Shown here piece by piece: positions 10,975 through 20,228 of a DNA stretch of 64,000 nucleotides. Position 1 is the first letter of the stretch. Each line of letters begins with the position of its first letter. The translations under genes and the position numbers were made by a program. The stretch is from Myxococcota bacterium. GTDB lineage: Bacteria > Myxococcota_A > UBA796 > UBA9615 > JAKLKC01. The notes below the pieces were generated by a model, which saw only the letters and a program-made list of their open reading frames with translations, made no database searches and was not told the DNA's origin. The stretch covers positions 1 to 64,000 of the forward strand of contig JAKLKC010000021.1 in assembly GCA_023150875.1 (NCBI GenBank), given 5' to 3'.

Positions 10975-11775
10975 TCAGGGGCCCGCGTCGTCCGGCTCCG
11001 GAGGGGCCTCCCCGAAGGCGCCGAGGGCGGAGATCCCCTCGTCGGAGCAGCGCAGCACCTCCGTGGTCACCGGGTGACCCGAGCCGGCGTGCTCGTGCAT
11101 GACCACGTCGGCGAGGCCCGGGAGCCAGGCGGGATCGCCGTCCTCGAAGGCCATCAGGAAGTCCCTGCACGGGGCGATGGCCACGACGGGCCATCCCAGC
11201 AGCGGAGCCACCCGCTCCCGCAGGTTGGGGGCGAGGAGCAGCGAGGCCTTGAACACCGAGTCGATCTGGAAGACCGCGCAGCGTCGACCTCGCATCCGGT
11301 GGACCTCGACGTGGGTGCCGTCCAGCAGCGAAGCCATGTTGCTCCGGGCCGCCCAGTGGACGTCCTCCGGCTCCAGGCCCCACCCCTCCAGGGTGCGCCC
11401 GGAGATCCAGGTGACGAAGCGCTCCTCCGGATCGGCGTAGACCAGGACCCGCGTCGTCCCCCGGGTGAGGGGCGCGTGGAGGGTGTCGCGGAACTCGTGG
11501 TGCAGGGACTCCAGGCTGAGGCGCACCCCCGAGCGGGCCACCAGCCAACCCGGGAGCCCCGCCGGGCCTTCCAGGACGGCGCGGACCACGCCCGGGACGG
11601 CCCCCAGGCCCCCGCGATCCCGGGCGGCGCGCACCATGGCGTCCAGGTCCACGAGGACCTGGTCCGCCCCCCGGTGGAGGGTGGCGCGGGCCGTCCCCGG
11701 GGCGTAGACGAGGTCCACCCCGCGGCGGCGCAGCTCTTCGGCGATCTCCTGGCGGAGCGGGGCGTCTTCGGACAT
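10975..11775 (-). CDS. DUF1444 (YtpQ-like) family protein
   Basis: A 266-residue protein of unknown function. It shows the DUF1444-like order: a segment describing a strand-helix pair (QVLVDLDAMVRAAR), a middle stretch RVLVYADPEERFVTWISGRTLEGWGL, and the C-terminal block SVFKASLLLAPNLRERVAPLLG...AIAPCRDFLMAFEDGD. I chose the ATG at 11775, 14 bases after the pabB stop. A longer frame starting at 11814 would overlap pabB by 26 bases and has no better ribosome site. It probably forms an operon with pabB. The family assignment is from pattern memory and could be wrong. Confidence 0.72.
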   Translation of the reverse strand: MSEDAPLRQEIAEELRRRGVDLVYAPGTARATLHRGADQVLVDLDAMVRAARDRGGLGAVPGVVRAVLEGPAGLPGWLVARSGVRLSLESLHHEFRDTLHAPLTRGTTRVLVYADPEERFVTWISGRTLEGWGLEPEDVHWAARSNMASLLDGTHVEVHRMRGRRCAVFQIDSVFKASLLLAPNLRERVAPLLGWPVVAIAPCRDFLMAFEDGDPAWLPGLADVVMHEHAGSGHPVTTEVLRCSDEGISALGAFGEAPPEPDDAGP

Positions 11776-11788
11776 GGGACCCCGAACG

Positions 11789-13273
11789 CTAGGCTTCCAG
11801 GGCCCCGGGGTCAACGCCCCCGGCGCCCCCCAGGACCTCCATCCAGGCTGCGGCCTTCACCAGGGACTCCCGGTACTCCTCGTCGGGGCGGCTGTCCCAG
11901 ACCACTCCCCCGCCCACCCCGAGGGTCACCCGGCCCCCTTGGAACGTCGCGGTGCGGATGGCGACGTTCAGGTCCGCGTGGCCGGTGAACGACAGGTAGC
12001 CGATGGCGCCGCAGTAGATCCCGCGCCGGTGGGGCTCCAGGGCGTCGATGAGGGCGAGGGCCCTGACCTTGGGGCAGCCGGTGACGGAGCCCGGCGGGAA
12101 GGTCGCGCGCAGCCAGTCCAGGGGCGACGTGCCCGGGCGCAGGCGGGCCCGCACGTCACCCACGCCGTGGTGGACCGTGGCGTAGCTCTCGATGGCCCGG
12201 GAGCAGGGGACGTGGACACCCCCCGGCACGGCCACGCGGCCGAGGTCGTTCCGGACCAGGTCGACGATCATCGCCAGTTCCGCCCGGTCCTTTTCCGACG
12301 CCACGAGGTCCCCCCGGGAGGCGGCGTCCCCCGCGGGCGCGGCGAGCCGGGGGCGGGTGCCCTTCACGGGGCGGCTGTCGGCGGCACCCCCGTCGACCTT
12401 CAGGAAACGCTCGGGGGAGTTGCTGGCGACGGTGAGGCCGGCGACGCGGAGGAAGGCGCCGTAGGGGGCCGGGCTGAGGACCCTCAGCCGCCGGTACGCC
12501 GTCAGGGGATCCCCCTCGCAGGCGGCCTCCAGCCTCTGGGCGAGGTTCACCTGATACACGTCGCCGGCCCCGATCCGCTCCCGGATCCGCCGAACCCGGT
12601 CGTGGTAGTCCCGGGGAGACAGGTCGGAGCGGGGAGGGCCAAGGAGGCGGAAGGGAGGGCGGGGCGCCGCGGGCCCCGCGCACGCGCGCCGGACCTCCCC
12701 GGCACTGCGGGACAGGGCTTCTCTCTCGGCGGGGTCGTCGGGATCGGCGCCGGGGAAGCACCGGCACAGCCAGGCGCGGTCCCGGTCGTGGTCGATGGCG
12801 ACGACGGTGTCGGCGACGGCGAGGCCGACGTGGGGCACGTGGGCGTCGTCCTCGGCGGAGTCCGGGACCCGCTCGAAGCTCCGGCCCAGGTCGTAGGACA
12901 GGAAGCCCGCCAGCCCGCCCGGGAACGGCGGGACCCCGTCATCCTCTTCCACTCCCTCGGGCCATGGGGCGAGGCCCAGCCTCGAGAACGCCTCCTCCAG
13001 CCCCGCGATCAGCGGCGCCCCGTCGAGGGAGGCCAGGAGGCGCGCGGCGCCGGACCCGCCCCCGGCGCCCGCGAGGCGGACCCGCAGCCTCTCGCCCTCG
13101 GCGACCAGCACGGCTGGGGGCGGCAGCGTCAGGAACGACCACCTCCCCGTCGTCGCCGTCCGCATGCCCGAGTCGAGCCACCCGCAGTCGTCCCCCCCGG
13201 CGAGCCCCTCCACGAGGCGATGGGCGGGCAGGTCCAGGGGGAGGAGCGAGGGGCGGGGCAGCAAGGCGGTCAA
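11789..13273 (-). CDS. pabB: Aminodeoxychorismate synthase component I
   Basis: Chorismate-utilising enzyme that makes 4-amino-4-deoxychorismate for folate. The C-terminal catalytic half has GDVYQVNLAQRL, SNSPERFL, the diagnostic PVKGTRPR (PabB proteins have the nucleophilic Lys where TrpE has Ala), EKDRAELAMIVDLVRNDLGR, FPPGSVTGCPKV and the GVGGGVVWDS end motif. The 494 residues are normal. The start codon appears to be TTG, and no better ATG lies close. No glutaminase partner (pabA) or lyase (pabC) is in the window. It is followed closely by the DUF1444-like gene. Isochorismate synthase at the start of the window uses the same precursor. Confidence 0.9.
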   Translation of the reverse strand: MTALLPRPSLLPLDLPAHRLVEGLAGGDDCGWLDSGMRTATTGRWSFLTLPPPAVLVAEGERLRVRLAGAGGGSGAARLLASLDGAPLIAGLEEAFSRLGLAPWPEGVEEDDGVPPFPGGLAGFLSYDLGRSFERVPDSAEDDAHVPHVGLAVADTVVAIDHDRDRAWLCRCFPGADPDDPAEREALSRSAGEVRRACAGPAAPRPPFRLLGPPRSDLSPRDYHDRVRRIRERIGAGDVYQVNLAQRLEAACEGDPLTAYRRLRVLSPAPYGAFLRVAGLTVASNSPERFLKVDGGAADSRPVKGTRPRLAAPAGDAASRGDLVASEKDRAELAMIVDLVRNDLGRVAVPGGVHVPCSRAIESYATVHHGVGDVRARLRPGTSPLDWLRATFPPGSVTGCPKVRALALIDALEPHRRGIYCGAIGYLSFTGHADLNVAIRTATFQGGRVTLGVGGGVVWDSRPDEEYRESLVKAAAWMEVLGGAGGVDPGALEA

Positions 13274-13366: not shown

Positions 13367-14755
13367 TCAGCCATCCCGCGGCGACCTGCGCGCCGCCAGC
13401 CAGCGGTAGAGGGTGGCGCGCCCGATCCCCAGGCGCTCCGCCGCCCTCCCGACGTGACCCGAGGTCGCCTCCAGCGCGTCCCTCACCGCCTCGTCCTGGA
13501 GCCGATGGAGGGTGGCGTCGGTCCCCGCGCCCCTCTCCATCCCCCGTCCCGCCACCGCGGGGCGAGGGGGAGGGGAGAGGCCTTCCCGCACCTCCTCGGG
13601 GAGGTCGTCGGGGCGGATCCATCCGTCTTCCGAGGAGATCAGCGCCCGGCGCACCGCGTTCTCGAGCTCCCGGACGTTGCCGGGCCAGCTCCACCCCATG
13701 AGGTCTCGCATCGCCTCGGGCGCGATCCCCCGGTGCGGTCGGATCGCCTCCCCGGTGTAGCGCCGCACCAGCGCCTCCACCAGGTCGGGCAGGTCCTCCA
13801 GCCGCTCCCGGAGGGGGGGTACCCGCAACGGGTATCCCGCCAGCCGGTAGTAGAGATCGGTCCGGAACCGCCCCTCGGCGATCCGGGCCCGGAGGTCGAC
13901 GTGGGTCGCCGACACCACCCGCACGTCCACCGCGACCGGGCGGTCGGATCCCACCGGATCCACCGTCCCCTCCTGGAGCGCCCTCAGCATCCGCGCCTGG
14001 GTCTGGGGCGCCATCTCGGCCACCTCGTCCAGGAAGAGGGTCCCCCCCTCGGCCTGCTGGAAGCGCCCGCGCCGACGCTCCGCCGCCCCGGTGAAGGCCC
14101 CCTTCTCGTGGCCGAACAGCTCGCTCTCCTGGAGCCCCTCGGGGATCGCCGCGCAGTTCACGGCGACGAACGGCGCCCGGGCGCGGCGCCCGAGGGCATG
14201 GATCCGCCGGGCGAAGAGCTCCTTCCCGGTCCCGGTCTCCCCTTGGACGAGCACGGGGATGTCGCTGCGGGCCACCCGGTCCACGTGCCGGAGGGCCTCG
14301 ACGATGGCGGCGCTGGTCCCCACCACGTCGCCGTCGTGCGCCGCCCCCGGGGTCGCGGGATCGCCGGCCTCGCCGGAGCCAGCCAGGGCCCGCTCCACGC
14401 TGGCCACCAGGTGCCCCCGCTCCGCCGGCTTGACCAGGTAGTCGCTGGCCCCAGCGCGCATGCACCTCACGGCGGCCCCCACCTCGTCCGCCGCCGTCAG
14501 CACCACCGCCGGGAGCGCGTGGCCTCCCCGGCGGAGCCGCTGCAGCACCTCCGCGCCGTCCATCCCCGGCATCCGCATGTCCAGGACGACGCAGTCCGGC
14601 CGCACGCCCCCGGCGGCGAGGTCCCGGAGGAAGGCGGCACCCCCCGGGTACTCCGAGACGGCGTGGCCGGCCAGCAGCAGCCACCTCGCCACGAGCTGGC
14701 GCTGCGCCGACTCGTCGTCGACCACGCAGATCCGCGCAGGCGCTGCTCCGACCAT
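13367..14755 (-). CDS. NtrC-type sigma-54 response regulator
   Basis: A 462-residue three-domain regulator. Residues 8-120 are a receiver (DDE acid pair, phospho-acceptor Asp in VVLDMRMPGMDG, conserved Lys in LVKP). Residues about 140-370 are a sigma-54 AAA+ domain with Walker A GETGTGKE, the sigma-54 contact loop GAFTGA, FLDEVAEM and the WPGNVRELEN motif. The C-terminus is a Fis-type helix-turn-helix. It should activate sigma-54 promoters after phosphorylation. A divergently transcribed histidine kinase starts 180 bases away and is the likely partner, although that kinase gene is frameshifted. The target genes are unknown. Confidence 0.92.
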   Translation of the reverse strand: MVGAAPARICVVDDESAQRQLVARWLLLAGHAVSEYPGGAAFLRDLAAGGVRPDCVVLDMRMPGMDGAEVLQRLRRGGHALPAVVLTAADEVGAAVRCMRAGASDYLVKPAERGHLVASVERALAGSGEAGDPATPGAAHDGDVVGTSAAIVEALRHVDRVARSDIPVLVQGETGTGKELFARRIHALGRRARAPFVAVNCAAIPEGLQESELFGHEKGAFTGAAERRRGRFQQAEGGTLFLDEVAEMAPQTQARMLRALQEGTVDPVGSDRPVAVDVRVVSATHVDLRARIAEGRFRTDLYYRLAGYPLRVPPLRERLEDLPDLVEALVRRYTGEAIRPHRGIAPEAMRDLMGWSWPGNVRELENAVRRALISSEDGWIRPDDLPEEVREGLSPPPRPAVAGRGMERGAGTDATLHRLQDEAVRDALEATSGHVGRAAERLGIGRATLYRWLAARRSPRDG

Positions 14756-14934
14756 CTTGGACCGCCACTCCGCTCCCCTCCTATCGGTCCCCAGCCCCCC
14801 GCAATCGAGCCCCCGCGCTCAAGGCGCGTTCCGGGGCGCCGAAGGGGCTGGGGCCACGAAACGGATGCAGGACGGCGCGACCCTGTCCCGCGGAGCGACG
14901 CGCTCCGGGCGGCGGAACCGCCGAGGAGGGCGCC

Positions 14935-16102
14935 GTGGGCCGAGCCGCCCGGGCCCGAAGGCCGCCGGAGATCCACGCCGCCGACGCCCCCTGCGCCCCC
15001 GCGCCCCGGGACGCGCCCCCGGCCCGCTCGCCGGGTGCGGGGGAAGCGCGCCTGGCCTTGCTCTCGGCGGCGGTACGGTCCTCCCCAGGACCCGTGGTGG
15101 TCACCGACGCCCTGGACCGGGTGGTCGCGGCGAGCGAGGGACTGCTCCGGGCCATCGGCCGCGAGGAGTCCGACGTCCGGGGCGAGCCCTTCGCCTCGCT
15201 GATCGCGCGGGAGGAGGGCGCCCCCCGGGCCGGTACCCGGCTGCGGGAGGCGGAGCGGGGGGGCTGGCAGGGGGACCTCCTCTTCCGGGGGGGGGGGAGC
15301 GGCGCGGGCGCCCGTGCGCGCGGCGGCACGGGCGGTGCGGAGCCCGGAGGGGGCCGTCCTGGGGTACGTCACCCTGGGCCAGGAGTCCGACGCCCATAGG
15401 GACGCCGAGCGCCGCAAGGACCGCTTCCTCGCCCTGATCGGTCACGAACTCCGGACCCCCCTGGCCTCGGTGCAGGGCTTCGCCCGGCTCCTGGTGGAGG
15501 AGCCCGACATGGCCCCCGACCTGCGGGCGGGCTACCTCGCCGTCCTGGACGCGGAGGCGAGCCGCCTGCGGGAGCTCCTGGAGGACCTGCTGCGGGCCGC
15601 GCGCCTCCAGTCGGGGGAGTGGCGCCTGGCCCCACGCCCGCTGGACCCCTTCTCCGCGGTCCGGGACATCGTCGACCGGGCCGTGCCCCTGGCCCGGGCC
15701 CAGGGACGGACCCTGCTGCTGGGACCCCTCCCTCCGGGCGCCCGGGTGCTCGCCGATCCGGACCTCTGGCCCCTCACCCTCAGGAACGTCCTGCAGAACG
15801 CCATCCGCTACGGCGCCGAGGGGGGGACCGTCACGGTCGGGGGCGCGGTCCAGGACGGCGAGGCCGTGGTGACGGTCACCGACGACGGGCCGGGCATCGA
15901 CGAGGACGAGCTGCCCCGCGTGTTCGACCGCTTCTTCCGGGGCCGGGCGAGCGCGGGGGTCCCCGGGACCGGCCTCGGGCTGTCCATCGCCCGGGACGTC
16001 GCCTGGCGGCACCGGGGCGACCTGGTCCTCCGGCGCGGCACCGGCGGCGGGACCGTCGCCGAGGCCCGCTGGCCCCTGGTCCTCTCGGGCCCGCGCCGCT
16101 GA
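14935..16102 (+). CDS. PAS-domain sensor histidine kinase, frameshifted at a G11 run
   Basis: Two overlapping frames together make one kinase. The first (14935-15399, GTG start) encodes a PAS-like sensor (PVVVTDALDRVVAASEGLLRAIGR) up to GWQGDLLF. The second (frame of 15314-16102) continues the end of the PAS fold (EGAVLGYVTLG). It then gives the H box ALIGHELRTPLAS, N box RNVLQNAIRYG, DDGPGI and GTGLGLSIA. The switch lies at eleven consecutive G at 15287-15297, and ten G would give one open frame. This could be a sequencing error, a recent mutation or a phase-variable tract. No membrane segments are seen, so a soluble kinase is expected. It is divergent from the NtrC-type regulator. Confidence 0.8.

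Positions 16103-18410: not shown

Positions 18411-20228
<1,818 letters not shown>

Follow-up and report, generated by a model that had tools for sequence, protein, structure and literature searches.

A G-run divides a histidine kinase gene between two frames

A run of 11 G residues lies on the forward strand at positions 15287-15297 of the window (the whole 64,000-nucleotide stretch of DNA analyzed here), inside the PAS domain of a histidine kinase gene as read from the sequence, and divides that gene between two reading frames. The PAS half and the kinase half probably once formed a single gene, to judge from their sequences, and the extra base at the junction is, on balance, probably an incidental replication-slippage indel, reversible in principle. 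The junction is occupied by a long simple repeat in coding sequence whose length sets the frame. An earlier sequence-based description (the initial annotation) had reported an 11-G run splitting a histidine kinase gene at this position, and both the run and the split were found as it stated; its claim that the PAS and kinase parts would join on removal of one G agrees with the two frames, which differ by one base. The gene and its divergent neighbor comprise the following features:

13367-14755, reverse strand: NtrC-type response regulator (REC, sigma-54 AAA+, Fis HTH; assigned by Pfam), the intact divergent neighbor
14923-14929, forward strand: GAGGAGG, resembling a Shine-Dalgarno sequence, 5 nt upstream of the start GTG (read from the sequence)
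14935-16102, forward strand: kinase gene (PAS-HisKA-HATPase) in two frames, start GTG at 14935
14935-15286, forward strand: N-terminal region plus the portion of the PAS domain that precedes the run; open frame, PAS_4 18.6 bits including the first codons of the run, codon score 0.203
15287-15297, forward strand: G11 run at the frame junction, near residue 120 of the joined reading, where the PAS domain encodes glycines
15298-15399, forward strand: out-of-frame tail of the assembled first ORF (154-aa product), TAG at 15397-15399; PAS_4 18.0 bits for the product
15296-16102, forward strand: remainder of the PAS domain followed by HisKA and HATPase_c, all read in the second frame, whose first GTG downstream of the run is at 15314
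15416-15616, forward strand: HisKA, containing HELRTPL (residues 41-107 of the second-frame translation)
15773-16078, forward strand: HATPase_c (residues 160-261 of the second-frame translation)

The PAS frame is in register with the GTG at 14935 and remains open until the TAG at 15397-15399, and the kinase frame is already open upstream of the run and continues, over a stretch of 299 amino acids, to the stop at 16102. A scan for promoters and terminators near the start of the kinase gene found none. Over the 150 nt on each side of the run, the best-frame codon scores are 0.43 and 0.26, in frames that differ. Taken whole, both parts are free of stops, with a codon score of 0.203 and a GC3 of 0.92 for the PAS part and a codon score of 0.367 and a GC3 of 0.97 for the kinase part. 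Relative to 80 reference stretches, which have a mean score of 0.353 and were selected above 0.25, the kinase part is similar, and the PAS part falls below them and below the selection level itself. This lower score may indicate some decay or weak expression of the PAS part.

The second-frame translation matches the Pfam families HisKA (56.5 bits, cut-off 26.9) and HATPase_c (84.4 bits, cut-off 26.4), the former including the HELRTPL motif, which we take to be the H-box. PAS_4 scores 18.0 bits on the assembled ORF, 18.6 bits on its first part, and 23.7 bits on the joined reading, where it covers residues 48-150. The allele as assembled has a cut PAS domain that scores below the PAS_4 cut-off of 23.1 bits and is not in one frame with the kinase core.

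When the kinase was compared with 146 loci by tblastn, 92 matches were obtained, 12 of them crossing the junction. These 12 distant homologues cross it in one frame, 10 without any stop and 2 with one stop each. Their G-runs at the position aligned with the tract are at most 6 long, in a set where some homologues are gapped at this place and none is an established orthologue. Because joining the two frames lifts PAS_4 just over its cut-off and the 12 homologues read across in one frame, the two halves probably represent one gene. If the case is an ordinary one, it bears on annotation: an automatic pipeline would probably call two short ORFs at this locus, where we read one kinase gene whose G-run differs in length by one base.

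A stable gene fission, or an older pseudogene, would instead leave a PAS fragment next to a separately translated kinase core. Such an arrangement would suit the 262-aa ORF from GTG 15314, which retains complete HisKA and HATPase_c, and the weaker codon bias of the PAS part compared with the kinase part. We nevertheless consider it very improbable: the GGAG upstream of this GTG is poorly placed, at a distance of 14 nt, the break falls inside a domain and not in a linker, and stops are absent on both sides.

Recoding, by RNA polymerase slippage on the G-run or by ribosomal frameshifting, would yield some full-length kinase from the divided gene. Although a long homopolymer sits directly at the junction, this appears extremely improbable. 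RNA of the 100 nt downstream of the run folds no better than shuffled sequences (z 0.27), and no run over 6 occurs in the 12 distant homologues; among features of programmed frameshifting or slippage, neither a conserved slip site in these homologues nor a structure in the 100 nt was found. Transcriptional slippage, moreover, usually takes place at A or T runs, according to the excerpted text of the GeneTack survey (PMC3711429). The same excerpt judges single unclustered frame transitions to be likely indel mutations or sequencing errors, a class to which the kinase G11 may belong (PMC3711429).

A probable slippage indel in an ordinary kinase gene

In the account that we favor, an ordinary PAS histidine kinase gene would have gained a long G tract because consecutive glycines follow an arginine in its PAS domain and the genome writes many of these residues as GGG and CGG (39% of glycine and 45% of arginine codons, respectively, in the sampled coding stretches). 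One base would then have been added to the tract, a change to which long homopolymers are prone. Translation of the G11 allele from GTG 14935 would give a 154-residue fragment with a partial PAS domain, and production of the kinase core, probably at a low level, would depend on an internal start (GTG 15314, for example) and would leave out the sensor. The intact regulator would be left without its normal input if the kinase is its partner, and a further slip could reverse the change. Since both halves are stop-free and coding-like, the change is probably recent or polymorphic. The run, the two frames, the domains, the intact regulator, the mismatch repair genes, and the genome-wide pattern are observed; we infer that the extra base is truly in the DNA, that the event was recent, that signaling was lost, and that the change is reversible.

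Long G-runs in the source genome

As a run, the G11 is unsurprising for the composition, with ~0.3 G/C runs of exactly 11 expected per 64 kb under order-2 or order-3 Markov chains; it is unusual in its place. Apart from the kinase tract, none of the 61 glycine triplets sampled from coding stretches has a G-run exceeding 7; the tract is therefore unusual for its kind, which counts against an incidental origin. Across 6.92 Mb of the genome, we counted 29 runs of 10 or more (from 25 and 24 overlapping matches, collapsed by hand), compared with 72 (order 5) to 235 (order 3) expected from Markov chains; for runs of 11 or more, the genome-wide count was 14, compared with 19 (order 5) to 81 (order 3). 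The 29 runs comprise fifteen G10, ten G11, three G12, and one G14. By analogy, this deficit would fit repeat avoidance of the kind described for Mycobacterium tuberculosis, in which, in the absence of mismatch repair, codon choice prevents nucleotide repeats, as summarized in the excerpted report (PMC2430213).

An automatic codon-bias test placed 4 of the 29 runs in frame within genes (all of them G10) and found 24 to be without coding signal on one or both sides, which left the run at 15287-15297 as the sole one with a clear two-sided coding signal in different frames. Two calls were subsequently made by hand. The G14 was moved to the shifted class, with a downstream score of 0.146 against the threshold of 0.15 and Pfam matches on both halves, and a G12 on contig C158, in an ORF with no family match, was read by eye as in frame. 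With these two calls, 22 of the 29 runs are without coding signal on both sides. Loci L182 and L185, where the best frames differ, were taken to be gene boundaries.

The four in-frame G10 runs lie in ileS, nuoN, and genes for an FG-GAP repeat protein and a TPR protein (L009, L019, L020, and L030; contigs C11, C55, C77, and C97). Their presence in ileS, nuoN, and the others indicates that base composition can give rise to long G-runs, which by their presence alone do not identify a contingency gene. Above a length of 10, the in-gene runs comprise one in frame (the G12, in a short lipoprotein-like ORF, by eye) and two shifted (the G11 at 15287-15297 and the G14). This distribution supports a one-base indel in the kinase gene, fitting free drift of run length beyond ten. 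Against a slippage indel stand the mismatch repair genes of this genome, mutS1 (988 bits) and mutL (478 bits, found with its neighbor), which should lower slippage.

The G14, at C28:3994-4007 on the reverse strand, splits a sigma-54 activator (L011, G000:C28:2494-5402) on a contig of only 5.4 kb. The AAA+ part of this activator matches Sigma54_activat with 179 bits, and its Fis-type HTH_8 matches with 34.6 bits in another frame.

Consensus error as the main rival

The main rival to a slippage indel is a consensus error, in which the run has its in-frame length in the cells, the extra base having been introduced by library amplification, sequencing, or assembly of a long G-run. We regard this as possible but rather unlikely, and from the assembled sequence alone an error and a real mutation at the G11 cannot be separated. 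Both halves of the gene are stop-free, as an error would leave them, and a G10 in frame here would match the four other in-gene G10 runs. A general homopolymer fault of the assembly was, however, rejected for runs of up to 10, since almost all of the sampled G5 to G10 runs are in frame. For runs flanked on both sides by coding sequence of one strand, the ratios of in-frame to shifted runs in 224 kb are 703:9 for G5, 185:1 for G6, 45:1 for G7, 15:0 for G8, and 2:0 for G9, with a codon model trained on the same 224 kb that supplied these counts and with the shifted calls at G5 to G7 (9, 1, and 1) being automatic. Rows left out of these ratios are, for G5, 477 at edges, 4 noncoding, and 7 with differing strands; for G6, 150 at edges and 1 with differing strands; for G7, G8, and G9, 40, 10, and 2 at edges, respectively; and for runs of 10 or more, 24 of 29. 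Thirty of the 144 exact G9 runs in the genome were examined in addition and gave a ratio of 11:0, the other 19 being without coding signal on both sides, and the ratio for G10 is 4:0.

Beyond a length of 10, the counts are very small: two of the three in-gene runs are out of frame, which would also fit an error, and the G12 in the short lipoprotein-like ORF reads in frame by eye. Of the 14 runs of at least 11, two are no more than 35 bases from the end of a contig. Both are G11 runs, one at C103:25-35 and the other at C123:53041-53051, 13 bases from the end of C123 (53064). In relatives, 30 runs of at least 11 were sampled in the 29 first-listed loci, using a looser threshold of 0.10 (instead of 0.15) and the codon model of the source genome; 9 of them are at contig ends, 20 are without two-sided coding signal, and 1 is in frame. 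Long G-runs seem to break assemblies, although the contig ends in the relatives represent breakage and not a wrong run length. Given that two of the three in-gene runs above 10 are shifted and that such runs occur at contig ends, errors confined to the longest runs are possible.

Evidence bearing on a phase-variation switch

The initial annotation had offered error, mutation, or phase switch as readings of the divided kinase; the split itself is borne out, and the switch is left without positive support by the presence of mutS1 and mutL, the smaller than expected number of long runs, the in-frame G10 runs, and the homologue G-runs of at most 6. In an evolved switch, the G tract would be kept so that slipped-strand mispairing turns the kinase on and off, which we consider improbable here. 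The tract is placed where a shift removes sensing, no glycine-coding run in the sampled coding stretches is longer, a G14 breaks a second sigma-54 regulator of the genome, and a precedent class exists in BvgS (PMC1891110) and FlgR (PMC3930126), as far as the excerpts of these reports describe them. Set against these points, runs of 10 or more are fewer than expected (29 compared with 72-235) and 22 of the 29 are without two-sided coding signal, G10 runs stand in frame in ileS and nuoN, mismatch repair is encoded by mutS1 and mutL, and the longest aligned G-run in the 12 homologues is 6 (in distant sequences, some of them gapped, none an established orthologue). A genome-wide excess of long tracts in genes was not found, at 29 runs of at least 10 for 72-235 expected. 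Such an excess of long in-gene tracts is a supporting trait of contingency genomes and not a strict requirement.

Homopolymer frameshifts in two-component genes are already known from BvgS and from FlgR, the regulator whose kinase is FlgS. The Bordetella pertussis case is similar to the present one in that a single additional base in a G/C homopolymer disrupts a sensor kinase gene; in the excerpted report, phase variation is attributed to a change from C6 to C7 in the bvgS coding sequence (PMC1891110). It differs in that both bvgS alleles were observed and linked to phenotype, and in its much shorter tract, whereas here a single assembly supplies the sequence (PMC1891110). Campylobacter jejuni FlgR shares the frame changes at homopolymers and a connection to sigma-54, as the regulator of the RpoN regulon, and flgS is phase-variable too, according to the excerpt of that study (PMC3930126). 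There, by contrast, the tracts are of A/T and revertants were observed, whereas here a G tract lies in the kinase gene, next to an intact regulator and in a genome with mutS1 and mutL (PMC3930126).

A broader form of the same proposal is that a small set of sigma-54 regulators in a GC-rich bacterium with mutS and mutL is switched by G tracts, with the kinase G11 and the C28 activator G14 as its members. We consider this decidedly improbable. The kinase G11 and the C28 G14, which separates the AAA+ region from the Fis-type HTH, are the only two in-gene frame shifts found at runs of 10 or more, and both concern sigma-54 regulation; the breakage of a second sigma-54 regulator at a G14 is a coincidence that a switch would explain. 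If the tract varies and is kept, homopolymer phase variation of two-component systems would extend to a little-known GC-rich lineage with mismatch repair genes.

The divergently encoded regulator

The initial annotation had described the partner regulator as intact, and the gene at 13367-14755 does encode four Pfam domains above cut-off: Response_reg (88 bits), Sigma54_activat (229 bits), AAA_lid_14 (77 bits), and HTH_8 (33 bits). That it is the partner of the kinase is presumed from adjacency alone. Searches with the kinase and with the regulator covered 93 genomes, the source genome included, and the regulator matches listed are at most 50% identical. The regulator was also searched across contigs, where the best 80 of 588 matches were considered. 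Kinases divergent from regulator matches at L071 and L077 were assessed as possible orthologues and were not convincing.

Sigma-54 regulators seem to be common in the source genome, with at least 129 first-look candidates and at least 17 scored matches to the regulator query. Elsewhere in the window, a 279-aa ORF on the reverse strand (10975-11814) adjoins a chorismate-binding enzyme and matches no Pfam family at 1e-4. Another sigma-54 activator, this one carrying FHA and GAF domains, is encoded on the reverse strand at 18411-20228, ~3.7 kb from the first and beside coaE.
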